This document shows, one piece after another, positions 25,485 to 36,867 of a stretch of DNA of 44,041 nucleotides. Position 1 is the first letter of the stretch, and each line of letters starts with the position of its first letter. Made by a program: the position numbers and the translations under genes. The DNA comes from Betaproteobacteria bacterium (GTDB lineage: Bacteria > Pseudomonadota > Gammaproteobacteria > Burkholderiales > SG8-41). The DNA lies in assembly GCA_021730905.1 (NCBI GenBank), contig JAKFYK010000076.1:1-44041 (forward strand), read 5' to 3'. The notes below the pieces were generated by a model that worked only from the letters and a program-made list of their open reading frames with translations, searched no databases and was not told where the DNA came from.

Positions 25485-27620
25485 ATGCGCTCCGACCTCG
25501 AACGTTTTTTCAACCCGAAATCCATCGCCATCATCGGCGCTTCAAAGGATCTCGTCACCATCAGCGGCCAGCCGCTGAGTCATCTGGTCAATCACGGCTA
25601 TAGCGGAAAACTCTATCCGGTGAATCCGCGTTATCCGGATATTCTCGGCCATAAATGTTATGCATCGCTGGCCGACGTACCGGAGACACCTGAGCTGGCG
25701 CTGATCCTGATTAACGCGTCACGGGTGGCGGACATGCTGGAGCAATGCGGCAAAAAAGGCGTGCCCTATGTGATTATTTTCAGTTCGGGCTTCTCGGAAA
25801 TGGGCGGCGAGGGCGTGGCGCTGCAACAGCGCCTTGGTGCCATCGCGGAGAAATATAATATCGGTGTCATTGGCCCCAACTGCCAGGGCCTGATGAACGT
25901 GGCGGGCAAATGCTACGCGGGCTTTGGCTCGGTGTTTTTCTCCGACTACCCGGCGGGCCGCGTGAGCATGGTGTCGCAGTCGGGTGGTTTCGGTTTTTCG
26001 GTGCTGAGCCTGGCGTCACTCGACGGCGGGCTCGCGTTCCGCCAGATGGTGACTACCGGCAACGAGATCGGCGTTTCGACGCTGGATTTCATCGACTATT
26101 TCATCCGCGATCCGCACACCGACATCATTGCCGGCTATCTTGAAGGCGCGAAGGATGCGCGGCGCATCACGGAAATCGGCCTGAAGGCGATGGCCGCCGG
26201 GAAGCCGATTTTGATGTGGAAAGTCGGCAACACTGATGAAGGCCAGAAAGCCGCCGCCTCGCACACCGCGAATCTCGGCGGTGCGATGGCGCTTTATCAG
26301 GCGGCGTTCAAGCAGACAGGCATTATTCAGGTCGAGGACATCCAGGACGTGGTCGATTATGGCCGCATGTTCCGCTGTGGAAAATTGCCCAAAGGCAATC
26401 GCATTGCGATGATCACGGTGTCGGGCGGCGCCGGTATTCTGATGACCGACGAATGCGTGTCGCGCGGCATGCAGTTGGCGAAACTCGCGCCGGAAACCGT
26501 GGCAAAGCTGAAAGAATTTGTGCCGTCATTCGGCTCCCTTGGCAACCCGGTGGATGTGACGGCGGCGATCTTCAACGACCTCGCGCTGATCAACCGCACG
26601 CTGCAGGCGATCGTCGATGATCCGGGCGTCGATTGCATCGCGCTGATCAACGCATCGCTGCAGGGCGAGATCGCAACCAAGATCGCACACGAGATCGTTG
26701 CGATTGCGAAAACCACCGACAAGCCGATTGCCGCGGCGTGGAGCGCGCGCGACGTGATGGCGAAAGAAGCTTACGCGATGCTCGATGCCGAGCGCATCCC
26801 GCATTACAAATCACCGGTGCGCTGCGGGCGCGCGTTCGCGGCATTGAGTGGGTACGCCGAAGCCAAGCGCCGCATCGAAGCGCAGCGCAACGAAAGGCCG
26901 TTGGTATTACAAAAAACACAATCAAAAGAAATACTTAATAATAGAGTCGCAGATGTTGCCGAATACGAGGCGAAAAAGGCGCTTGCCGAATACGGCATTG
27001 CAGTGACGCAGGAAGAACTCGCCGCCACACGCGAGCACGCGCTGGCGATCGCAAAACGCATCGGCTATCCGGTGGCGATCAAAGTGCAGTCACCGGATAT
27101 TTCGCACAAGACCGAAGCCAAAGCGGTGAAGCTGGGCTTGTCATCCGACGCCGAACTCGCAGCTGCGTACGATGAAGTGCTGGCCAATGCGAAGGCCTAC
27201 AATGCCAAAGCGCACATCGATGGCGTGCTGGTGCAGGAAATGTTGCGCGGTGGCACCGAAGCGATACTCGGCATCGCCAACGATCCGCTGTTCGGGCCGG
27301 CGGTAATGTTCGGGCTGGGCGGTATTTTTGCGGAGATCATGAAGGATGTATCGTTTCGTCTCGCGCCGGTGACGCTGTCGATGGCGCGCGAGATGATAGC
27401 GGAAATCAAGGGCTATCCGCTGCTCACCGGCGCGCGCGGACGTGCCCACGCTGACATCGATGCGCTGGCTGACGCCATCGTGAAATTGTCCGCGCTGGCG
27501 ATAGATTTAAAAGATCATGTGGCTGAACTCGACATCAATCCGCTGTTCGTGATGGAGCGCGGCAAGGGTGTGAAAGCGGCTGATGCGCTGATACGGCCGA
27601 AGGTCAAAGCTGGAAATTGA
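25485..27620 (+). CDS. Acetate--CoA ligase (ADP-forming) family protein
   Basis: A 711-residue NDP-forming acyl-CoA synthetase. Domains in order are a CoA-binding Rossmann domain (LERFFNPKSIAIIGASKD), a succinyl-CoA-ligase-like domain with the phosphohistidine H260 (AASHTANLGG), a linker and a C-terminal ATP-grasp domain (EYEAKKALAEYGI, then VLVQEMLRGGTEAILGIANDPLFGPAVMFGLGG). It would make an acyl-CoA or run in reverse to yield ATP, feeding the acyl-CoA dehydrogenase encoded next. ATG 25485 is preferred over TTG 25476. Linker residues ~475-488 are encoded by AT-rich repeat copy 6. It is the first of eleven collinear genes. Confidence 0.92.
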   Translation: MRSDLERFFNPKSIAIIGASKDLVTISGQPLSHLVNHGYSGKLYPVNPRYPDILGHKCYASLADVPETPELALILINASRVADMLEQCGKKGVPYVIIFSSGFSEMGGEGVALQQRLGAIAEKYNIGVIGPNCQGLMNVAGKCYAGFGSVFFSDYPAGRVSMVSQSGGFGFSVLSLASLDGGLAFRQMVTTGNEIGVSTLDFIDYFIRDPHTDIIAGYLEGAKDARRITEIGLKAMAAGKPILMWKVGNTDEGQKAAASHTANLGGAMALYQAAFKQTGIIQVEDIQDVVDYGRMFRCGKLPKGNRIAMITVSGGAGILMTDECVSRGMQLAKLAPETVAKLKEFVPSFGSLGNPVDVTAAIFNDLALINRTLQAIVDDPGVDCIALINASLQGEIATKIAHEIVAIAKTTDKPIAAAWSARDVMAKEAYAMLDAERIPHYKSPVRCGRAFAALSGYAEAKRRIEAQRNERPLVLQKTQSKEILNNRVADVAEYEAKKALAEYGIAVTQEELAATREHALAIAKRIGYPVAIKVQSPDISHKTEAKAVKLGLSSDAELAAAYDEVLANAKAYNAKAHIDGVLVQEMLRGGTEAILGIANDPLFGPAVMFGLGGIFAEIMKDVSFRLAPVTLSMAREMIAEIKGYPLLTGARGRAHADIDALADAIVKLSALAIDLKDHVAELDINPLFVMERGKGVKAADALIRPKVKAGN
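26906..26942 (-). repeat. AT-rich dispersed repeat, copy 6 (inside a coding region)
   Basis: On the minus strand it reads TTAAGTATTTCTTTTGATTG, followed by TGTTTTTTGTAATAC, matching copy 9 at about 28 of 35 positions. It lies in frame in the CoA ligase gene, where it encodes LQKTQSKEILNN (residues 475-486) between the ligase and ATP-grasp domains. The neighbouring codons are typically GC-rich and this block is not. Confidence 0.75.
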
Positions 27621-27633
27621 CGAGGTATTTCCC

Positions 27634-28776
27634 ATGAACAATCACGTAACCCCTGAAGTGCGCGCACTGTGCGATGAAGTGGCCCGCTTTATCCGCAAGG
27701 AAGTCGATCCGCGCTCGCGCGAGATTGAAGAATCAGACGCGATTCCCGATGACCTGATGAAACTTGCGCGCGAGATGGGCTTGTTCGGACTGACGATACC
27801 CGAAGAATACGGCGGCAGTGGCTTGACGCTGGCCGGCAAGTGCGCCATCGAAGAGGAAATGGGCAAGACCAATTACGGCTTTGCCACGGTGATCGCCAAT
27901 CACACCGGAATCAGCACTGCCGGTATCGTCGCGCTGGGTAACGAAGCGCAAAAGAAAAAATATCTGCCGCGCATGGCGAGCGGCGAATGGGTCGGCACGT
28001 TTGCGCTGACCGAGCCGCAGGCGGGCTCGTCGCCGGCGGACATGCGCACCACGGCGGTGAAGAAGGGTGACCGTTACATCCTCAACGGCGAAAAAATCTA
28101 CATCACCAATGCCGGCATCGCCAACGTGTTCACGGTGATGGCGATTACCGACAAGTCCAAAGGCATCAAGGGAATTTCAGCGTTTGTGGTTGAGCGCAAC
28201 TTCAAAGGCTTCAGCGTCGGCAAGAACGAACTGAAGATGGGCATGCACGGTTGCACCACCGCGCCGCTGGCGTTCAACGACTGCGAAGTGCCGGCGGAGA
28301 ATCTACTCGGTGCCGAAGGCCTGGGCTATATACAGGCGATGAAAACGCTGACTAATGGGCGCGTGACGGTGTCAGCGCGCTGCTGCGGCATGATGGATAA
28401 CCTGATTGCCCGCTGCGTCGATTACATGAAAGTGCGCGTGCAGGGCGGCAAGAAGCTCGCCGAGCATCAGGGCCTGCAATGGATGCTTGCCGACATGTCG
28501 GTGCAGCGCGATGCGGCGCGCGGGCTGACCTATCGCGCCATCGATACGCTGATGCGCGGCGAGCGCGGGACCATGGAAGCGTCGGCTGCCAAACTGTTTG
28601 CAACCGAGGCATTGGGCCGAGTTGCCGATTGCGCCGTGCAGATCCACGGTGGCATGGGCTACATGCGCGAAGCCGGCATCGAAACGGTGTATCGTGATGC
28701 GCGCATCGTGCGCATCTACGAAGGCTCGTCGGAAATTCAGCGCAATATCATCGGCGGATTGCTTTTGAAAGATTGA
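27634..28776 (+). CDS. Acyl-CoA dehydrogenase
   Basis: A 380-residue flavoprotein that oxidises acyl-CoA to enoyl-CoA. Hallmarks are FALTEPQAGSSPADMRTTA (FAD and substrate binding), YITNAG, VQIHGGMGYMRE and the C-terminal RIYEGSSEIQRNII, whose E363 corresponds to the catalytic base of medium-chain-type enzymes. It follows the CoA ligase after 13 nt and precedes an SDR gene after a short gap filled by AT-rich repeat copy 7. The chain length or branch preference cannot be read from the sequence. Confidence 0.95.
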   Translation: MNNHVTPEVRALCDEVARFIRKEVDPRSREIEESDAIPDDLMKLAREMGLFGLTIPEEYGGSGLTLAGKCAIEEEMGKTNYGFATVIANHTGISTAGIVALGNEAQKKKYLPRMASGEWVGTFALTEPQAGSSPADMRTTAVKKGDRYILNGEKIYITNAGIANVFTVMAITDKSKGIKGISAFVVERNFKGFSVGKNELKMGMHGCTTAPLAFNDCEVPAENLLGAEGLGYIQAMKTLTNGRVTVSARCCGMMDNLIARCVDYMKVRVQGGKKLAEHQGLQWMLADMSVQRDAARGLTYRAIDTLMRGERGTMEASAAKLFATEALGRVADCAVQIHGGMGYMREAGIETVYRDARIVRIYEGSSEIQRNIIGGLLLKD

Positions 28777-28810
28777 TATATATAAGTATTTGTTTTTAAA
28801 GGGATATTTT
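28776..28810 (+). repeat. AT-rich dispersed repeat, copy 7
   Basis: The sequence ATAAGTATTTGTTTTTAAAG starts at 28782 and runs on into GGATATTTTTTG. It fills the whole gap between the acyl-CoA dehydrogenase stop (28774-28776) and the likely TTG start of the SDR gene (28811). Within this copy the sequence AAAGGGA (28798-28804) is correctly spaced to serve as the Shine-Dalgarno sequence of the SDR gene. Confidence 0.82.
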
Positions 28811-29587
28811 TTGTCGAGCGTCAGAGAGCTGTTAAACCTCGAAGGCCATGTCAGTGTGATCACCGGTGGCGCAACCGGCATTGGTTTTCAAATGGCGACG
28901 GGCCTTGCGGAAGCCGGATCGAACATCGTACTTTGCTCGCGCAAGGTCGAGGTGTGCGAAGCCTCCTGCGCACAGCTTGAAAAGCTTGGTGTAAAAACGC
29001 TCGCGGTCTCGTGTGACGTGACCAAGCCTGATCAGGTGGAAGCAATGAAGGACGCGACGCTGAAAAAATTCGGCCGTGTCGATGTGCTGATGAACAACGC
29101 AGGGCGGGCCTGGGTCGCGCCACCCGAAGACACGCCATTGGATCGCTGGCAGCAAGTGCTGGATCTCAACGTCACGGCGGCGCTTATCTGCGCGCAGGCC
29201 ATCGGCCGCGAATTCATCAGACAAAAGCGCGGCAAGATTATCAATATTGCTTCCATTGCGGGAATCGTGGGCCGCAATCCCAAGGCGTATAGTTCCATCG
29301 CTTACAGCACGAGCAAAGGCGCGCTGGTTCACTTCACGCGTGACCTCGCGGTAAAATGGGCGCAGCACAATATTCAGGTGAATTGCATCTGCCCGGGATT
29401 TTTTGTGACGCCGCTCAACCAGAAACTGTTCGAGCGCAATCGTGAAAACCTGGAAGCCGAGGTGCCGTTGCACCGCACCGGAGGACCGGACGATCTGAAG
29501 GGTGCTGCGGTGCTGTTGGCGTCGCGTGCGTCGGATTTCATTACCGGCGTGATTCTGCCGGTGGATGGCGGCACGGTAGCCTGGTAA
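28811..29587 (+). CDS. Short-chain dehydrogenase/reductase (SDR)
   Basis: A 258-residue classical SDR. The nucleotide-binding motif is TGGATGIG, followed by NNAG and the catalytic S...YSTSK (NIASIAGIVGRNPKAYSSIAYSTSKGAL). The C-terminus VILPVDGGTVAW is typical of 3-oxoacyl reductase-type SDRs, and a hydroxyacyl-CoA oxidation or reduction step fits the operon. The start is not certain: TTG 28811 (MSSVRELLNLEGH) has AAAGGGA at -13 to -7. An upstream TTG at 28790 would add seven residues encoded by the repeat (MFLKGYF). Confidence 0.92.
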   Translation: MSSVRELLNLEGHVSVITGGATGIGFQMATGLAEAGSNIVLCSRKVEVCEASCAQLEKLGVKTLAVSCDVTKPDQVEAMKDATLKKFGRVDVLMNNAGRAWVAPPEDTPLDRWQQVLDLNVTAALICAQAIGREFIRQKRGKIINIASIAGIVGRNPKAYSSIAYSTSKGALVHFTRDLAVKWAQHNIQVNCICPGFFVTPLNQKLFERNRENLEAEVPLHRTGGPDDLKGAAVLLASRASDFITGVILPVDGGTVAW

Positions 29588-29594
29588 GACCATC

Positions 29595-31241
29595 ATGAGC
29601 AACGAGCGCGACTATCCCGATCTGCACGAGCATCTTGAGGCCCTGAAAAGGGCTGGCCTGCTGCTGACAATAGATCGTGCCATCGACAAGGATGCCGAGA
29701 TGCATCCGCTGGTGCGCTGGCAATACGTGGGCGGCATCGAACACGAGGAACGCAAGGCGTTTCTGTTTACCAACGTGGTTGATGGCCGCGGCCGCAAGTA
29801 CAAGTTTCCGGTGGTGGTGGGCGCGCTGGCGGCGAATCCGGCCGTATATCTGCAGGGGATGCAGTGCGCTGCCGAAGACGTGGAGAAACGTTGGGGCGAG
29901 GCCACTACGCATCCGATTGCGCCGCGCATCGTCGAGAATGCTGCGTGCCAGGAAGTGGTTATCGAGGGCGATGCGTTGAAGGGTGACGGCAACGGGCTCG
30001 ACAGCCTGCCGATACCGATTTCCACGCCCGGTTTTGACAGCGCGCCGACACTGACTGCAACCAACGTCATTACCAAGGATCCGGAAAGTGGCATCCAGAA
30101 TCACGGCACCTATCGCGCGGCGCTGAAGGCGAGCGACCGGTTGGTGGTGCGCATGGCCACGCGCGCGGGCGGCGCGGGCGGCTACCGTCATTACCAGAAG
30201 CATCAGGCGCGCGGCGACAAGGAAATGCCGATCGCCATCGTGCTTGGCGCGCCACCCTGTGTGGCGTACGTGGCGCCGATGAAACTGCCGATCGACATGG
30301 ATGAGATTGGTGTCGCCGGTGGTCTCGCGGGCGCACCGATCAACGTGGTCAGGGCACGCACCGTGGATTTGCTGGTGCCGGCGGAAGCGGAAATCGTCAT
30401 CGAAGGTTTCATCGACACCGAGACTCTGGAACCGGAGGGTCCGTTCGGCGAATCGCACGGCCATATCGCGCTCGAAGAATTCAACATGCCGATGCGCGTG
30501 ACCGCGATCACCCATCGCAAGGATGCGATAGTCGCTTCGTATATCTCGCAGGTGACGCCCAGTGAATCGAGCGCGATCAAACTGGTTTCGTACGAGCCGA
30601 TGTTTCTCAATCATTTGCGCAAGACGCTGGGCATACGCGGTGTCAAGCGCGTCAAACTGCATGAACGTTTAACAGCGTTGCGGCGCATCATCATTCTGGT
30701 GATGGAGAAGAACACGCCGAAGACGGAAATCTGGCGCGCACTGCAAGGCGCGAGCGCATTCCGGGCTGATTGCGGAAAAATCTGCATCGCGGTCGATGAA
30801 GATATCGATCCGGAAAATTCCGATGCGATTTTCTGGGCGCTGGCGTTCCGCATGAATCCATCGTCCGACTTGCAGGTGATCAACTACCGCAGCCCCGGCC
30901 ACGGCCCGGAGCGCGAGCATGAGGCCGAGCGTGAGGATGCCACGCTGCTGATGGACGCGACGCGCAAGGAAGAACTGCCGCCGTTAGCGTTGCCGCGTCG
31001 CGAGTACATGGAACGTGCGGGCAAGATATGGGATGAACTGGGTCTGCCGAAGCGCCGTCCGCAGTCGCCATGGTTCAGCCCCGGTGACGGTGACTGGCTG
31101 CCGCAGTGGGACGAGGCCGCCAGGCGCGCGGTGGAAGGCCGTTATCTCGACAACGGCAGGATCAGCGAAAAGCTGAAACGCAAAGGATTAAAACCGGAGA
31201 CAGGATTCCGGCCGGATGAATCGGAGAGCAAACCGAAGTAG
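29595..31241 (+). CDS. UbiD family decarboxylase
   Basis: A 548-residue member of the UbiD family, which (de)carboxylates unsaturated or aromatic acids using prenylated FMN made by a UbiX flavin prenyltransferase. The catalytic-site region is visible at about residues 280-292 (LEPEGPFGESHGH), which contains the two conserved Glu residues. The N-terminal MSNERDYPDLHEHLEALKRAGLL and the middle PIAIVLGAPPCVAYVAPMKLPIDMDE also fit. No ubiX-like gene lies in the window. It starts 7 nt after the SDR stop. The substrate is unknown, but the operon suggests an unsaturated or aromatic acid. Confidence 0.92.
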   Translation: MSNERDYPDLHEHLEALKRAGLLLTIDRAIDKDAEMHPLVRWQYVGGIEHEERKAFLFTNVVDGRGRKYKFPVVVGALAANPAVYLQGMQCAAEDVEKRWGEATTHPIAPRIVENAACQEVVIEGDALKGDGNGLDSLPIPISTPGFDSAPTLTATNVITKDPESGIQNHGTYRAALKASDRLVVRMATRAGGAGGYRHYQKHQARGDKEMPIAIVLGAPPCVAYVAPMKLPIDMDEIGVAGGLAGAPINVVRARTVDLLVPAEAEIVIEGFIDTETLEPEGPFGESHGHIALEEFNMPMRVTAITHRKDAIVASYISQVTPSESSAIKLVSYEPMFLNHLRKTLGIRGVKRVKLHERLTALRRIIILVMEKNTPKTEIWRALQGASAFRADCGKICIAVDEDIDPENSDAIFWALAFRMNPSSDLQVINYRSPGHGPEREHEAEREDATLLMDATRKEELPPLALPRREYMERAGKIWDELGLPKRRPQSPWFSPGDGDWLPQWDEAARRAVEGRYLDNGRISEKLKRKGLKPETGFRPDESESKPK

Positions 31242-31256
31242 AAGGGAGGTGGTGCT

Positions 31257-32372
31257 GTGAACAGTCCTGCTGAACCCCGCTTATCGGAACCGCCCGCAGT
31301 GGACGCGGACGACCTCATCGAGTGGTATTACCAGCAAGGCTATTCCGACGGCCTGCCGCTGGTGCCGCCGACGCCGGCGAAAATCGACGCGATGGTGAAA
31401 GCGCTGGGCGGCGATGCTTTGTTTCGCGAATGCCGCGTGCCGCCGCGCTGGGGCAGCCTCACGCGCGAGGTGTTGGCGATCAACATGGTGATGGCGGGTT
31501 GTCTGCCCGAATATGCATTGATCGTGCGTGCGGCGATGCACGCATTGTGCGATCCGGCGTTCAATCTCAATGGCGTGCAGGCCACCACGCACATGGCGAG
31601 CCCGCTGCTGATCGTCAACGGTCCCGCGCGCAAGGCCGCAGGCATGAATGCGGGTTGCAATGTGTTCGGTTCAGGCAATCGCGCGAACGCGACCATCGGC
31701 CGCGCGATACGCTTGATACTGCTCAACGTCGGTGGGGGCTGGCCCGGTGAATTGGATAAGAGCACGCTGGGCCATCCCGGCAAATACACCTATTGCATCG
31801 CCGAGAACGAAGAGACCAGTCCGTTGGTGCCCTATCACGTCGAGCACGGCTACAAGGCCGAAGATTCCACAGTGTTCGTGCTCGCCGCCGAGCCGCCGCA
31901 CAGCGTAACCAATCACGTTGCCAACGATCCGCAGGGCATATTGGACAGCATCTGTTCGGCGATGAGCACGATCTGCTCGAACAACGCGGTGATGGGCGGG
32001 CACTGTGCGGTGGTGATCGGCCCGGAACACGCGCGCACCATCGCCAAGCACGGCTGGAAGCGTCACGATATCCGTCATTACCTGTGGATAAACTCCGGCA
32101 ACCTGTGGAAAGACCTGTACTTCAACGACCGCTACGGCAAGGTTTACAACCGCAGTTTCCCCGCGTGGTACAAGCGCGAGCTGGATGCGATGACCCCCAT
32201 CGTGCCGACGCCAGACAACATCCACGTATTCGTTGCGGGCGGTGAAGCGGGACGATTCTCGGCGTTGATCCCCGGCTGGGGGCGCGTGTCGTCGCCGGTG
32301 CTGCGGGCGATTGATCCGGGGGCGGAACCTGCTGGCGGGCCGGTGTGTCTGGATGGAACCTGCACTCTCTGA
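31257..32372 (+). CDS. Conserved hypothetical protein, UGSC-gene neighbour
   Basis: A 371-residue cytoplasmic protein with a GTG start preceded by GGGAGG (31244-31249). I do not assign a function. It opens with DLIEWYYQQGYSDGLPLVPPTPAKIDAMV, continues with RVPPRWGSLTREVLAINMVMAGCLPEYA and a Gly/Asn-rich centre (GMNAGCNVFGSGNRANATIGRAI), and ends PGAEPAGGPVCLDGTCTL, a CxxxxC pair two residues from the C-terminus. Such a mobile C-terminal thiol pair often carries redox equivalents. The gene sits 21 nt upstream of the UGSC selenoprotein gene, and I recall proteins of this type next to UGSC genes in other genomes. Confidence 0.85.
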   Translation: MNSPAEPRLSEPPAVDADDLIEWYYQQGYSDGLPLVPPTPAKIDAMVKALGGDALFRECRVPPRWGSLTREVLAINMVMAGCLPEYALIVRAAMHALCDPAFNLNGVQATTHMASPLLIVNGPARKAAGMNAGCNVFGSGNRANATIGRAIRLILLNVGGGWPGELDKSTLGHPGKYTYCIAENEETSPLVPYHVEHGYKAEDSTVFVLAAEPPHSVTNHVANDPQGILDSICSAMSTICSNNAVMGGHCAVVIGPEHARTIAKHGWKRHDIRHYLWINSGNLWKDLYFNDRYGKVYNRSFPAWYKRELDAMTPIVPTPDNIHVFVAGGEAGRFSALIPGWGRVSSPVLRAIDPGAEPAGGPVCLDGTCTL

Positions 32373-32393
32373 TTTGAACTGCGGAGGATATTG

Positions 32394-32942
32394 ATGATCC
32401 CGACTCAACATTTCTATGACCCGCGCGGCGTGGTCGAAGCCGATGCGCTTGCGGCGGCGGTGCGTGTCCGCTCGCTCGAAGGCATGCGTCTCGCGATACT
32501 CGACAATACGAAATGGAATGCAGGTAAGCTCCTGCGCAATATCCAGGAAGGTTTATCGTCCGACACAGGACTTTCGGCGATAAACTATTACCGCAAGCAC
32601 AGCTTCTCCATGAATGCCGCGCCGGAATTGCTGGATGAGATCGCCGCCAATAACGATCTCGTGGTCACCGCCATAGGCGACTGAGGCTCCTGCACGTCGT
32701 GCTGTATGCACGACACGGTGGAACTGGAAGCGCGGGGCTTGCCCACGGCGCTGATTATTACGACAGAGTTTCAGCTGGAAGCGCAGGTGCAGCGCGACGC
32801 GCTGGGCATGATCGCGCTGGATCCGGTGGTAATCGAGCATCCCTTGAGTTCGCTGACCGAAGACGAAATCACGCAACGCGCCGCGCAGGCGTTGCCGCAG
32901 ATCAAGTCGGTGTGGCTTACCGGGCAGGCGAAGGGCGCTTAG
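32394..32942 (+). CDS. UGSC family selenoprotein (in-frame TGA = Sec97)
   Basis: The frame runs from ATG 32394 (GGAGG 7-11 nt upstream) through an in-frame TGA at 32682-32684 to a TAG at 32940-32942, 182 residues in all. Around the TGA it reads VVTAIGD-U-GSCTSCCMHDTVELEARGLP, exactly the U/C-GSC motif of the UGSC (seleno)protein family. The downstream half continues with the family's usual sequence (PTALIITTEFQLEAQ, then EHPLSSLTEDEI). A 7-bp hairpin begins 11 nt after the TGA. The enzyme activity of the family is not established. Annotating the TGA as a stop would wrongly give a 96-residue fragment. Confidence 0.95.
32696..32714 (+). promoter_or_regulatory. Candidate bacterial SECIS hairpin of the UGSC gene
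   Basis: A perfect 7-bp stem GTCGTGC (32696-32702) / GCACGAC (32708-32714) closes a five-base loop UGUAU. The loop starts 18 nt after the TGA codon and has G as its second base. The published bacterial SECIS model, as I recall it, asks for the loop 16-37 nt after the UGA and a G in the first two loop positions, and both conditions are met. Confidence 0.85.
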
Positions 32943-32943
32943 C

Positions 32944-33933
32944 TTGAGGCACCATGCTTTGGTGCTGCTGCTGTTGCTTGGGGCGCTCGCTCCCGCTGCC
33001 GCGCAGACCCTTTCGACAAGCTCAGGACAGGCATTTCCGATAAAACCCATCCGCATCATTGTTCCGTTTGCCCCGGGTGGCGCCAACGATCTGGTGACGC
33101 GGCTGGTGGCGCAAAAGCTTGCGGCAGGCATCGGCCAGTCGGTGGTAGTCGAAAATCGCGGCGGTGCAGGCGGCACCATCGGCCTCGACGTGTGCGCCAA
33201 AGCGCCGCCGGATGGCTACACACTGGTGATGGCGCCGACCAGCGCAGTGGCGTTTGCTCCCAGCCTCAACGCGAAACTGCCGTACGATCCCGTCAGGGAT
33301 TTCGCGCCGATCACCAACGTATCGAGCGGACCGAACGTGCTGGTGGTGCATCCGTCGGTGCCCGCGGTGACCCTAAAGGAATTCATCGCGCTCGCGCGTT
33401 CGAAAACCGGCAAGCTGAGTTACGCCTCATCGGGCGCTACCAGCATGTCGGGCATGGCGGCGGAGATGTTCAAAAGCATGGCGAGCATCGACATGGTGGG
33501 CGTGCCGTACAAGGGCACCGGACCGGCGATGACAGAACTGATCGGCGGGCAGGTCGATGTAATGATTGCCGATCTGGCGATTTCGTTGCCGCACGTGAAC
33601 AGCAAACGGCTGCGCGCGATCGCGGTGACCGGGCCCAGGCGTTCGGCACATGCGCCGCAAGTGCCGACGGTCGCGGAGTCGGGCGTACCGGGCTACACGC
33701 TGGTCAACTGGCGCGGCATCCTTGCGCCGGCAGCGACGCCGCGCGACGTCGTGCTTAAGCTGAACGCCGAGATCATCAGGACCTTGCGTGCACCGGATAT
33801 CCGCGAATCGCTGGCGCGCGAAGGTTACGAACCGATAGGCGACACGCCCGAGCAGTTCGCGGCGCTGATTAAATCGGAAGTCGCGCGCTACGGTAAATTG
33901 ATCAAAGCCGCGGGAATTTCCGGGCAGCCGTAA
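32944..33933 (+). CDS. Bug family (TctC) solute receptor with repeat inserted at signal peptide junction
   Basis: A 329-residue receptor. The start is a TTG at 32944, 1 nt after the UGSC stop, with AAGGG at 32931-32935. The signal peptide ends at about A20 (LAPAAA|Q). It is followed by TLSTSSGQAFPIKPIRIIVPFAPGG, where nine residues (TLSTSSGQA) are encoded by a TTCGACAAGCTCAG repeat half instead of the usual one or two. The rest is a standard receptor (DGYTLVMAPTS, LPYDPVRDFAPITNV, VPYKGTGPAMTELIGGQ). Its place in the operon suggests it captures the substrate of the catabolic genes. Confidence 0.93.
   Translation: MRHHALVLLLLLGALAPAAAQTLSTSSGQAFPIKPIRIIVPFAPGGANDLVTRLVAQKLAAGIGQSVVVENRGGAGGTIGLDVCAKAPPDGYTLVMAPTSAVAFAPSLNAKLPYDPVRDFAPITNVSSGPNVLVVHPSVPAVTLKEFIALARSKTGKLSYASSGATSMSGMAAEMFKSMASIDMVGVPYKGTGPAMTELIGGQVDVMIADLAISLPHVNSKRLRAIAVTGPRRSAHAPQVPTVAESGVPGYTLVNWRGILAPAATPRDVVLKLNAEIIRTLRAPDIRESLAREGYEPIGDTPEQFAALIKSEVARYGKLIKAAGISGQP
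33008..33031 (+). repeat. REP-like repeat half inside a coding region
   Basis: The sequence CCCTTTCGACAAGCTCAGG (33008-33026), followed by ACAGG, is the same repeat arm as at 7531-7600 (TTCGACAAGCTCAG). It lies in frame at the signal peptide cleavage region of the Bug gene and encodes LSTSSGQ. The inverted partner arm is absent, so this is a solo half. Confidence 0.82.
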
Positions 33934-33952
33934 GTGTTCACTGGGAATACCT

Positions 33953-35023
33953 ATGCAAGTCGAAAAGCATCGTGAAATTATCGCGCCCTTTGCGTGGAAG
34001 GGCGCCGACCTTGAAAAATCCACCGGCTGGATACGCCGTTTCAGCGTTGATGAACTTGCCGAAATCGACCGTGCCCTGCGCAGCGTGCAGCGCAGGGGAC
34101 TGGAATGGCTCGACGTGACCCGAGAGGATTTTCCCTTGCCGGCGTTTGCGGGGGATCTCGCCGGGATCGCGCAGGAACTTGAAGCCGGACGCGGTATCGT
34201 GTTGCTGCGCGGCTTGCCGACTTCCTATTCGCCAGACGAGTTGCGGCTGGTGTACTGGGGCATCGGCGCGCACCTGGGCACTGCGGTGTCGCAGGGCGGA
34301 CGCGGCGAGCTGCTGGGCGTCGTCGAGGACGAAGGCAAGGCCGTGGAGAAGACGAAAATACGCGGCTCGAAGACGTCGCGTGAACTGCCCTTTCACGGTG
34401 ACCGCTGCGACGTCGTGGGGCTGCTGTGCGTGCGCAAGGCCAAATCCGGCGGCATCAGCCGCGTCGTCAGTGCGGCGCAGATTCACAATGAAATTCTGCG
34501 CCGGCGTCCTGATCTGATCGATGTGTTTTACGCCGATTGGTACAACAGCCGGCAGGGTGATGAGCAACCGGGCGAGGCGCGCGCGTATCCGAAGCCGATA
34601 TTCGGTTTTCGTGATGGCCATTTCACCGGCATGTTCTCGCCCGCGTATATCCGGTTCGCGCAGGATTTCCCCGAGGTGCCAAGGCTTACGGCGGCGCAAC
34701 AGGAGGCGCTTGACTTGTATGGCGACCTGTCCGAAGAACTTGCGCTCAATATGGAGTTCGAGCCGGGCGACATCCAGTTGCTGAATAACCACCTCACCTA
34801 CCACGCGCGCACGCGCTACGACGATTACGAGGAGAAGGAAAAGAAACGCCTGCTGCTGCGCTTGTGGCTTGCGGTGCCGGGCAGCCGCCCGCTGCCGCCG
34901 GGGTACGAACTATTGTTCGGCAGCATCGACGCGGGTGCTACGCGCGGTGGCGTGGCCAGCAAGGAAGGCTGGCGCGATGTGAATCAGTTACGTGCGCGGC
35001 GGCGTGCAGCAACATTGAAATGA
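33953..35023 (+). CDS. TauD/TfdA family Fe(II)/2-oxoglutarate dioxygenase
   Basis: A 356-residue dioxygenase. The triad fits H148 and D150 (LPFHGDRCD) and H284 (NNHLTYHARTRYDD), with a C-terminal RLWLAV as a likely anchor region. It is ~80 residues longer than the TauD-type protein encoded at 18566-19405 and belongs to a different subgroup: the N-terminal EIIAPFAWKGADLEKSTGWIRRFSVDELAEID is typical of the family branch with an added N-terminal domain. It starts 19 nt after the Bug gene and ends 8 nt before the TlpA-like selenoprotein gene. The substrate is unknown. Confidence 0.92.
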   Translation: MQVEKHREIIAPFAWKGADLEKSTGWIRRFSVDELAEIDRALRSVQRRGLEWLDVTREDFPLPAFAGDLAGIAQELEAGRGIVLLRGLPTSYSPDELRLVYWGIGAHLGTAVSQGGRGELLGVVEDEGKAVEKTKIRGSKTSRELPFHGDRCDVVGLLCVRKAKSGGISRVVSAAQIHNEILRRRPDLIDVFYADWYNSRQGDEQPGEARAYPKPIFGFRDGHFTGMFSPAYIRFAQDFPEVPRLTAAQQEALDLYGDLSEELALNMEFEPGDIQLLNNHLTYHARTRYDDYEEKEKKRLLLRLWLAVPGSRPLPPGYELLFGSIDAGATRGGVASKEGWRDVNQLRARRRAATLK

Positions 35024-35031
35024 GGTGTAGT

Positions 35032-35628
35032 ATGGAGCGGTTTCATTCTTGGGGTAAATGTATGTATTTGTTTTTAAAAGAAAAAATAGGAACGCTTGGT
35101 TTGATTGCACTGGCCCTGTGCGCGACGACGTGGACGACAGCCGTCCCCGCTGCAGAAGGCCTCTTTCCCGCGGCCACGGTAATGGCGCCGCCGGCGCAGC
35201 CGACGAAAATGCCGGAGTTCGAGTTCGTCAATCTTCAAGGCGGCACGCTGAAATCGTCGGAGTTGAAAGGCAAGGTGATCGTCATTCGCTTCTGGGCAAC
35301 CTGGTGAGACATCTGCCGCGGCGAGATGCCTTCCGTGCAGAAGGCACACAAAGAATACCCGGCGAAAGACGTGGTGGTGATGACGATTTCGCTGGATGGT
35401 GGTGACGGTACGGCAGTGAAGAAATATCTGGACGAGTTCAAATTCACCATGCCGACTGCGCACGATAAAGGCATGGCCTATGGCCGGCAGATCAATGCGC
35501 GCGGTGTGCCGATGACGTTCATCATTGACCGCAATCAAAACGTTGTCGCGCGCGGCATGGGACCGCTTGATCTTGACCGGCCCGACGTCAAAAAAATGAT
35601 TCAAAACCTTGTAGCAAAGCGAGGGTGA
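35032..35628 (+). CDS. TlpA/thioredoxin-like selenoprotein with UxxC active site (Sec92)
   Basis: The frame starts at ATG 35032 (GAGG 6-9 nt upstream) or ATG 35062, and reads through a TGA at 35305-35307 to a TGA stop at 35626-35628. The active site is FWATW-U-DIC-RGEMPSVQKAH, the TlpA/thioredoxin signature WCxxC with U92 as the first redox residue and C95 as the second. The cis-Pro loop is GVPMTFIIDRNQN. The N-terminus has a hydrophobic export segment (GTLGLIALALCATTWTTAVPA), so the domain is periplasmic. A 7-bp hairpin follows the TGA. Reading the TGA as a stop would leave a 91-residue stub and an orphan thioredoxin tail. Confidence 0.95.
35058..35088 (+). repeat. AT-rich dispersed repeat, copy 8 (inside a coding region)
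   Basis: The sequence GTATGTATTTGTTTTTAAAA starts at 35060 and continues GAAAAAATAGG. It is in frame with the selenium-containing TlpA-like gene and encodes CMYLFLKEKIG, the N-terminal basic part of its export signal. It contains the alternative start ATG 35062, so the repeat may itself supply the translation start. Confidence 0.78.
35327..35346 (+). promoter_or_regulatory. Candidate bacterial SECIS hairpin of the TlpA-like gene
   Basis: A perfect 7-bp stem TGCCTTC (35327-35333) / GAAGGCA (35340-35346) closes the six-base loop CGUGCA. The loop begins 26 nt after the TGA codon and has G at its second position, meeting the two main criteria of the bacterial SECIS model as I recall it. Confidence 0.83.
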
Positions 35629-35669
35629 GTCGCAAAACCGAACCACGTTTCACATCAAAGGAGATCGAT

Positions 35670-36221
35670 ATGTTCTTGCGAATGTTGAAGTCCCTGCTGG
35701 CCGGCGCGCTGTTTGCGCTTGTCATGCAGCCGGCGCACGCACTGCAGGTGGGCGACAAGGCGCCTGATTTTTCACTGCCATCGACGTCCGGAACCAACGT
35801 CCGTCTCGCCGATTTCATCGGTAAAAAATCGGTGGTGGTGTTTTTCTACATCGGCGCGTTTACCAAGACCTGAACACAGGAAGCCCTGGCTTTCCAACTT
35901 GATCTTCCCAAGTTCGAAGCCTTAAACGCCCAGGTCCTGGGCGTCAGTGTGGACTTCAATGGTGCGAATCAGGTATGGGCCGAGAAACTTGGCCTGACGT
36001 ATCCGTTGTTGAGTGATACCCAGCGTGCGATGTCGCGTGCCTATGAGTCCCTCAACGACGATGCGGAAATGGCCAAAGGCCCGCGTATCGGCGCCTACCT
36101 GCGCTCCAAGCGATCGTGGTTCGTGATCGACAAGCAGGGCATCATTCGCTATATGAAGATCGAATCCCCTACCTTGATACCCAGCGACGAACTGCTTGAG
36201 ATCGTCAAGAAGCATCAATAG
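35670..36221 (+). CDS. Periplasmic peroxiredoxin selenoprotein (Sec68)
   Basis: ATG 35670 is preceded by AAAGGAG (35657-35663). The frame passes a TGA at 35871-35873 to the stop at 36219-36221, 183 residues in all. The signal peptide ends near A24 (MQPAHA|LQVGDKAPDFSLP). The peroxidatic segment reads FFYIGAFTKT-U-TQEALAF, the AhpC/TSA motif with Sec68 in place of the attacking Cys. The first Pro of the usual PxxxTxxC is Ile, but Thr65 is kept. The conserved Arg lies in SKRSWFVIDKQG. The mature protein has no Cys, so there is no resolving thiol: a one-Sec enzyme needing an external reductant, plausibly the UxxC protein encoded upstream. Confidence 0.95.
35888..35921 (+). promoter_or_regulatory. 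Candidate bacterial SECIS hairpin of the peroxiredoxin gene
   Basis: A two-tier hairpin. The lower stem is GGCTT (35888-35892) / AAGCC (35917-35921), there is a small internal loop, and the upper stem is AACTTG (35896-35901) / CAAGTT (35909-35914) with a 7-base loop. The apical loop begins 28 nt after the TGA. Its first two bases are A and U; a G comes first only if the last G-C pair opens. The fit to the SECIS model is therefore good in place and shape and weaker in loop sequence. Confidence 0.7.
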
Positions 36222-36246
36222 TTGCGGGAATGAAAGGAGATGCATC

Positions 36247-36867
36247 ATGAAGACAGCGTTGTCCTGGATTGCGGCGATGCTGCTCCTTTGCATGGCAGGG
36301 TCGGTGGCCGGCATTGCGTCGGCTGCCGACGATCCGCGTGCCGAAGATCGCAAACAGTTGCTGAAAATCTTTGCCGAGATCGAAGGCGGTATCAACGATC
36401 AGAACATCGATCGCATGGTGGCGCAGATGGACGAAAACGCGACGGTGGTCTGGCTCAATGCCGAAGCCTCGCGCGGCCACAAGGAGATCAGGGCCTACTA
36501 TAACCGCATGGTAGGCAAGGGCGGCGACGTCATCCTCAGCAAATACCTGACTAAGGCCAAGGTTGCAGCGCCCGCGCGTTTTTTCGGCGACATCGCGGTG
36601 GCTGATGGCGCCATGGCCGATGAGTTCTTTCCGATCAAGCGCGATAAATTCACGCTCGATTCCAACTGGTCGGTTACCTGCGCGAAAATCAATGGTCAAT
36701 GGAAGGTAGTACATCTGCACCTGTCGGCCAATGTGTTCAACAACAACCTGCTCGACGAAGTGAAGCAGATGGTGTGGTACGCGGCAGGCGGTGGTTTGCT
36801 CGCGGGGCTGGTGCTGATGTTTGCAGTAATGCGACTGACGGGACGCTCAAGCCGTGCGGCGGGGTGA
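36247..36867 (+). CDS. SnoaL/NTF2-like exported, C-terminally anchored protein
   Basis: A 206-residue protein with a signal peptide (MKTALSWIAAMLLLCMAGSVAGIASA) and a SnoaL/NTF2-like domain: LLKIFAEIEGGINDQNIDRMVAQMDENATVVWLNAEASRGHKEIRAYYNRMVG, then NSNWSVTCAKINGQWKVVHLHLSANVF-type strands. A C-terminal membrane helix lies at ~177-199 (VWYAAGGGLLAGLVLMFAVM). It follows the selenium peroxiredoxin by 25 nt with AAGGAGA (36234-36240) before ATG 36247, and is the last gene of the run. A ligand-binding or scaffolding role at the membrane is inferred. Confidence 0.85.
   Translation: MKTALSWIAAMLLLCMAGSVAGIASAADDPRAEDRKQLLKIFAEIEGGINDQNIDRMVAQMDENATVVWLNAEASRGHKEIRAYYNRMVGKGGDVILSKYLTKAKVAAPARFFGDIAVADGAMADEFFPIKRDKFTLDSNWSVTCAKINGQWKVVHLHLSANVFNNNLLDEVKQMVWYAAGGGLLAGLVLMFAVMRLTGRSSRAAG

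Follow-up and report, generated by a model that had tools for sequence, protein, structure and literature searches.

What do in-frame TGA codons encode in an operon that otherwise looks catabolic, and what might the proteins do? This question is raised by a 44,041-nt contig from a Betaproteobacteria bacterium (JAKFYK010000076.1, assembly GCA_021730905.1; contig C34 of a 5.1 Mb genome that is 91.7% complete), which we will call the window. Its forward strand carries a putative operon of eleven genes (25485-36867), three of which contain an in-frame TGA: a UGSC gene (32394-32942), a TlpA-like gene (35032-35628), and a peroxiredoxin gene (Prx, 35670-36221). A preliminary description of the window, made from its letters alone, suggested that the three are selenoproteins that serve a single catabolic pathway linked to coenzyme A (CoA). 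Our own reading, to which we give a probability of roughly 0.6, is that the TGA codons encode selenocysteine (Sec) and that UGSC, together with the protein encoded just before it (the partner, 31257-32372), would be a thioredoxin-fed reductase that resembles GrdB and PrdB and acts on CoA-linked catabolic substrates.

Each of the three genes has one TGA at the active-site position, as had been described, and each frame continues to a normal end. The codons lie at 32682-32684 in UGSC (GDUGSCTSCC, with U for the TGA), at 35305-35307 in TlpA (FWATWUDICR), and at 35871-35873 in Prx (GAFTKTUTQEA). TGA is also the ordinary stop codon of the CoA ligase, the acyl-CoA dehydrogenase, the partner, the TauD-type dioxygenase, TlpA itself, and the last gene of the operon, so the genetic code is not reassigned, as the preliminary description had argued. 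It had also named selA, selB, selC, and selD as genes to seek, with the absence of selB and tRNA-Sec as the outcome that would speak against selenocysteine. All four are present in the genome of the window: the genes for tRNA-Sec (74.5 bits; ARAGORN concurs), SelB (449.5 bits), and SelA (578.8 bits) are clustered together on contig C16, and selD (419 bits), which has one in-frame TGA of its own, is on C143. A thioredoxin-reductase-like gene (L009:6766-7683, minus strand) sits between tRNA-Sec and selB. Its protein scores 216.8 bits against TIGR01292, which is under the cut-off of 343.45, and it is only about 28-34% identical to the thioredoxin reductases (TrxB) that are encoded beside UGSC elsewhere.

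The TGA codons are also conserved. All 17 UGSC matches in the genome of the window have one in-frame TGA. Of 41 genomes, 18 contain a relative of TlpA, in every case with the TGA (one of them, in G002, also has a TAA inside the matched span), and the Prx gene downstream of TlpA has its TGA in 18 of 18 loci (the window and 17 that we fetched). The alignments of TlpA and Prx contained Sec relatives only; a CxxC form of TlpA and a TxxC form of Prx are known. For UGSC, the window and 76 of the 80 named partner loci (the best 80 of 201 partner loci) gave 79 aligned rows, of which 65 have Sec and 14 have cysteine (Cys), encoded by TGC. In other words, UGSC has a TGA where homologues have Cys, which is the pattern by which selenoproteins are recognized. 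We also sought tRNA-Sec, with a threshold of 70 bits, in 20 genomes: 8 with a Sec-form UGSC and 12 with a Cys form (from 14 Cys loci). It was found in all 8 of the Sec-form genomes and in 6 of the 12 Cys-form genomes. The best matches in the other 6 scored 45.1-51.3 bits, and three of these (50.8-51.3 bits) exceed the Rfam cut-off of 47; we took them to be other tRNAs because Sec-form genomes also show second matches of 47-50 bits. The strong tRNA-Sec in six Cys-form genomes (72.4-74 bits; loci L113, L123, L125, L133, L140, and L142) implies that the choice between Sec and Cys in UGSC is not set solely by the Sec machinery.

A stem-loop 10-20 nt downstream of each TGA had been reported, and hairpin-forming sequence does start 11 nt (UGSC), 20 nt (TlpA), and 15 nt (Prx) past the codon. 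The hairpin of UGSC (32696-32714), which resembles a selenocysteine insertion sequence (SECIS), has 7 base pairs and a 5-nt loop. Among 68 distinct Sec sequences (with duplicates and a UGSS copy from the window's genome set aside), 49 have all 7 pairs and 63 have at least 6; of the 14 Cys sequences, none has 7 pairs and 2 have 6. The mean folding z score is -2.21 for Sec rows versus +0.34 for Cys rows (Mann-Whitney p 3.8e-8, which is indicative only, as the rows are related and encode different residues). When pairs are counted down the stem, 93.1% of the cells are paired, versus at most 51.3% for slid versions, and 18 cells have two-sided pair changes, versus 3.7 in shuffles; none of 500 shuffles matched this. 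The SECIS-like hairpin of Prx (35889-35920) is modest, with a mean folding z of -1.85. In TlpA, a candidate SECIS stem of the type GCCTTC/GAAGGC (35328-35345) can pair, by our reading, in all 18 sequences compared, and some of these carry paired substitutions. Two results limit the case for the stems: some slid versions of the UGSC stem have as many or more pairs that change on both sides (5, versus 4 in the stem itself) and as many further pair types (11 in both), and the TlpA stem is the fold of minimum energy in no more than 7 of the 18 sequences, not including the window, with a weak mean z of -0.98. Taken together, the Sec machinery, the conservation of the TGAs, the exchange of Sec and Cys in UGSC, and the hairpins support selenocysteine, and we consider it very likely that all three TGAs encode it.

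What might UGSC do? The gene before it encodes UGSC's usual partner, a pairing that the preliminary description did not mention. This 371-amino-acid protein belongs to no family in our Pfam or NCBIfam scans, and it has at least 7,984 relatives among 7,999 scored candidates. In the genome of the window, the partner adjoins or is fused to 15 of the 17 UGSC copies: 7 are fused to it, in frames of 558-591 amino acids, and 8 lie beside it. Of the other two copies, L035 has no partner in view, and L037 is on a 7.4-kb contig with the partner about 5 kb off. UGSC is in view in 76 of the 80 partner loci, and the partner is present in all 13 of the plasmid records with UGSC. A fusion termed UGSC/Unknown_1 was reported by Zhang and Gladyshev in 2008 (PMC2398784), and its second domain is most likely the partner that we describe here.

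The partner can also be fused to a thioredoxin-like domain. In L037:5678-7126 (minus strand, contig C125 of the window's genome), a thioredoxin-like domain with CPTC is joined to the partner by a PG(U)GS linker; the only Pfam match of this protein is Thioredoxin, at 19.9 bits (under the cut-off of 23.5). Among 120 listed relatives of the fusion, all 73 that are full length have Cys at the position of the U. The other 47 have 351-372 amino acids, and the 12 whose starts were displayed begin just past this position, which is expected if there is a TGA there (a prediction from the proteins). The thioredoxin-PG(U)GS-partner fusion is probably a selenoprotein as well.

The surroundings of the pair point to catabolism. 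In 7 of the 80 named loci, TrxB is encoded no more than about 4.5 kb from the partner, and in none is it encoded farther out. All 7 are Cys forms, from Bordetella, Achromobacter, Caballeronia, and Cupriavidus, and between the partner and trxB they have a CoA transferase and, in most, a TctC receptor. Caballeronia udeis LMG 27134 is an example of a strain that has the pair together with trxB and a CoA transferase. Across the 80 loci, three kinds of gene were seen more often in stretches near the partner (463 kb plus the centre) than in stretches far from it (454 kb): CoA transferase (CaiB) in 20 versus 7, LysR in 20 versus 4, and TctC in 18 versus 10. We also examined 8 of the 13 plasmid records with UGSC, 7 of which are annotated, and found a CoA transferase near partner-UGSC in 4 of these 7. 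On a plasmid of Roseovarius sp. THAF8, partner-UGSC-trxB lies close to genes for a CoA transferase and for a TRAP transporter, and three haloarchaeal plasmids have a CoA transferase near the pair. A plasmid of Arthrobacter sp. ERGS1:01 has trxB-trxA-partner-UGSC, and the plasmids from Acidovorax and Variovorax carry a gene for a TTT receptor close to the pair, with neither trxB nor a CoA transferase among their annotated genes. Thus, by genomic association, the partner fusion and the nearby trxB and trxA genes connect UGSC with the thioredoxin system as a putative donor, and the CoA transferases, carboxylate receptors, and thioredoxin reductase near the pair in other organisms support a catabolic link.

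In an AlphaFold2 model of UGSC (pLDDT 86.7), strands and helices alternate, and the Sec opens the helix that follows the third strand of the core. The structural matches of the model were a designed protein and generic alpha/beta domains, which we read as Rossmann-like. By this reading, the predicted fold is Rossmann-like and not thioredoxin-like, although a family absent from the fold lists could still be its match. Both this model and the thioredoxin link differ from the family as described by Zhang and Gladyshev, who called UGSC a likely thioredoxin fold (PMC2398784).

UGSC may work like GrdB and PrdB (PF07355), which also have U-x-x-C between a hydrophobic strand and a helix. Small PrdB-like genes of PF07355 have a TGA after DAVLLSPV (DAVLLSPV-U-PNC) in 18 of 30 loci, and we aligned the 18 that fit this pattern. 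When the UGSC profile (66 rows) was compared to the PrdB-like profile (18 rows) with hhalign, the score was 29.0 (P 0.0015), with Sec/Cys in register. The best of 60 column shuffles reached 22.4, reversed profiles reached 11.6 and 9.3, and seven unrelated families scored at most 18.8 against PrdB. Two other results weaken the comparison: an unrelated control, the CoA ligase profile, scored 26.5 when aligned with UGSC (over 20 columns), and the UGSC of the window had no match to PF07355 at E 0.001 in the Pfam scan. Because the profile match is weak and this control scored 26.5, we liken UGSC to GrdB and PrdB and do not claim that it belongs to their family. Glycine reductase does involve thioredoxin, according to a 2026 review (PMC13188914). 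The genome of the window also has a PrdB-like gene separate from UGSC (L044, C45:16810-17169), which contains an in-frame TGA and is one of the 18.

We propose that reducing power would pass from NADPH through thioredoxin reductase and thioredoxin to the selenol (or thiol) of UGSC. The partner would bind and activate the substrate, which the selenolate of UGSC would attack, so that a bond is cleaved reductively; a selenenylsulfide would then form within U-G-S-C and be reduced by thioredoxin. Substrates would be supplied by uptake with Bug or TRAP systems and by activation with CoA, and in the operon of the window, the Bug receptor might take part in uptake and the substrate might enter in the form of a CoA ester. 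Different paralogues of UGSC may serve different substrates.

The paralogues are numerous. The UGSC of the window passes both family cut-offs (194.2 bits for PF24696, cut-off 25; 156.7 bits for NF041046, cut-off 125), and the number of copies also sets this group apart from the family as described. The genome of the window has 17 matches to PF24696: 16 read U-G-[S/A/T]-C and one reads U-G-S-S. We found UGSC in 39 of 60 genomes surveyed (with 48 candidates scored in G013, G014, and G018), including all 36 members of the bacterial family, with at least two matches each, and every UGSC row among the matches listed had one TGA. In a dedicated search, a relative, G014 (98% complete with 2% contamination), had 58 matches, of which 54 have a TGA and 51 of these have no other stop; the TGA was present in 36 of 36 matches in G011 and in 30 of 35 in G013. 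These counts for the relatives include a TGA anywhere in the match, some matches are pieces of genes, and the family's genomes are largely fragmented assemblies. A survey by Peng et al. in 2016 counted 33 UGSC genes from 26 organisms (Table 3, PMC5029168), and the largest bacterial selenoproteomes are given as 57 and then 63 genes in the 2026 review (PMC13188914). Since 2008, UGSC has ranked with the selenoprotein families that are most abundant in aquatic environments (PMC2398784), and the part of the 2026 review that treats it gives it no known function (PMC13188914). Neither the expansion of UGSC nor this operon was described in the titles and abstracts of the open-licence literature that we searched.

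A broader reading, to which we give slightly less than even odds, is that UGSC and its partner make up a new class of selenium reductases driven by thioredoxin. In this class, the partner would be the substrate-binding core, with two interchangeable selenol arms (the Rossmann-like UGSC domain, or a thioredoxin with a PG(U/C)GS tail), and substrate-specific paralogues would have radiated within one bacterial family, to 17 in the genome of the window and more than 50 in a relative, which nears the largest published bacterial selenoproteome. The function of UGSC becomes testable through its usual partner, the thioredoxin link, and the operons with Cys forms that are present in named bacteria and haloarchaea. 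If a single genome does decode more than 50 UGA codons to make one family of enzymes, then such bacteria use more selenium than has been estimated, and gene predictions for them probably often truncate proteins at the TGA.

How are TlpA and Prx related to UGSC? We compared gene order, as the preliminary description had proposed, in 18 loci chosen by TlpA: the window and the 17 fetched loci, with 14 inside the genus and 4 outside it. The TlpA(U)-Prx(U) tandem is present in all 18, and partner-UGSC is present in 5 (the window, L205, L206, L207, and L212). The CoA ligase is in view in 10 of the 14 loci of the genus; L202 and L210 start within the cassette (their contigs open with UbiD and SDR, a short-chain dehydrogenase), the 1.4 kb upstream in L211 contains no cassette gene, and L212 ends in the partner. 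At the 4 loci outside the genus, neither the CoA ligase nor the acyl-CoA dehydrogenase was found in the stretch examined. L202 and L204 lack UGSC at this point, and their UbiD gene runs straight into Bug and TauD. Three further genomes share the order of the first ten genes (L205, L206, and L207, which we take to be the contigs L064, L066, and L065 and count once). The operon is modular: TlpA(U)-Prx(U) is a constant pair, which in the genus stands behind a cassette of CoA ligase, acyl-CoA dehydrogenase, and SDR, and partner-UGSC is an optional module in such loci.

TlpA (PF00578 and PF08534) and Prx (PF00578, 119.2 bits) each show, by eye, a hydrophobic leader at the N terminus, and their site of action is therefore probably extracytoplasmic, away from the CoA enzymes. 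The three selenoproteins would then not have to take part in a single reaction. We predict that TlpA(U) and Prx(U) are a separate extracytoplasmic pair in which TlpA would reduce Prx during the removal of peroxide. Their motifs (FWATWUDIC and GAFTKTUT) and families are those of known UxxC selenoproteins of the Prx-like/TlpA type and of TxxU selenocysteine peroxiredoxins. The pairs with Prx that are named in the review are Prx with a SELENOW-like protein and Prx-like with an AhpD-like protein (PMC13188914), whereas here an adjacent TlpA-Prx pair with two Sec recurs in all 18 loci. The SAO and Tso operons of Haft and colleagues, as cited in that review, likewise contain several selenoprotein genes each, but from different families: none of the models that it names (SaoB/C/L/P/T/X and TsoA/B/C) is among the NCBIfam matches listed for 10 of the 11 operon proteins (all but the Bug receptor; for the SDR, the best 25 of 231 rows). 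Prx matches Prx-SUH (NF045827) weakly, at 24.3 bits (cut-off 298). A second peroxiredoxin-family gene with one in-frame TGA is at C32:40553-40930 in the genome of the window.

Several other explanations of these genes have to be considered. That the TGAs are real stops or assembly errors in broken genes seems extremely improbable: the evidence for readthrough comes entirely from sequence, but a single TGA recurs in all 17 of the genome's own UGSC matches and in every row of the relatives among the matches listed, other UGSC proteins have Cys at this position, and the hairpin and the Sec machinery are present. Another explanation is that UGSC is a thioredoxin-like protein for thiol:disulfide exchange or the repair of peroxide damage, and that the operon is a selenium antioxidant cluster which happens to lie beside catabolic genes. 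TlpA and Prx belong to the AhpC-TSA/Redoxin families, which have the thioredoxin fold and would fit such a cluster. So would the thioredoxin fold that was thought likely for UGSC in 2008 (PMC2398784). However, the model of UGSC has an alternating alpha/beta, apparently Rossmann-like fold; the genome's 16 other UGSC matches have no PF00578 gene nearby on their own contigs (the nearest such gene, on C32, is at a distance of about 19 kb); Cys-form UGSC is often beside a CoA transferase, a receptor, and thioredoxin reductase; and 17 to 58 copies would fit a substrate-diversified enzyme better than a repair protein. We therefore consider a repair role unlikely and prefer a reductase of catabolic substrates.

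Whether UGSC belongs with TlpA and Prx is a separate issue. Their proximity could be a chance adjacency of the TlpA-Prx pair and a mobile partner-UGSC insert in a selenoprotein-rich genome, which we judge to be a toss-up and which is compatible with the mechanism proposed for UGSC. The 5 of 18 loci with partner-UGSC, the direct run from UbiD into Bug and TauD in L202 and L204, and the very common Bug genes in this genome fit such an insertion. On the other hand, the genes of the operon all share a strand and are separated by 1-41 nt, and three further genomes keep the first ten in the same order (the eleventh was not found there), which implies that the genes are probably co-transcribed. The single pathway with three selenoproteins that was suggested for the window is thus upheld in part: a catabolic link for UGSC and its partner gains support from the genes near them elsewhere, but the constancy of TlpA-Prx versus the sporadic presence of partner-UGSC, and the other UGSC copies without a PF00578 gene nearby, argue against tying all three to one pathway.

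The reading frames confirm the eleven collinear genes that had been described, with successive gaps of 13, 13, 7, 15, 21, 1, 19, 8, 41, and 25 nt, and the Pfam names of the products agree with those given before. The first gene encodes an NDP-forming acyl-CoA synthetase, the CoA ligase (25485-27620; ATP-grasp_5, Succ_CoA_lig, and CoA_binding_2), which scores under the displayed NCBIfam cut-offs. It is followed by the acyl-CoA dehydrogenase (27634-28776; Acyl-CoA_dh_1/N/M), the SDR (28790-29587; adh_short_C2), and a UbiD-type decarboxylase (29595-31241; 178 bits). Between UGSC and TlpA are the Bug/TctC solute receptor (32944-33933; PF03401, 250.8 bits) and the TauD-type dioxygenase (33953-35023; PF02668, 99.1 bits). 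The genome of the window has at least 150 matches to Bug/TctC receptors among the candidates scored (150 of 537). The eleventh gene (36247-36867) encodes a SnoaL-like protein (PF13474, 28.5 bits, cut-off 22) with a leader and a C-terminal hydrophobic segment, by eye, and has no counterpart in the relatives' operons that we examined. Finally, four contigs from metagenome-assembled genomes whose records are titled Bordetella parapertussis or Klebsiella pneumoniae (L065, L066, L067, and L078) carry orthologues of the operon or of the UGSC pair, and these titles look wrong.

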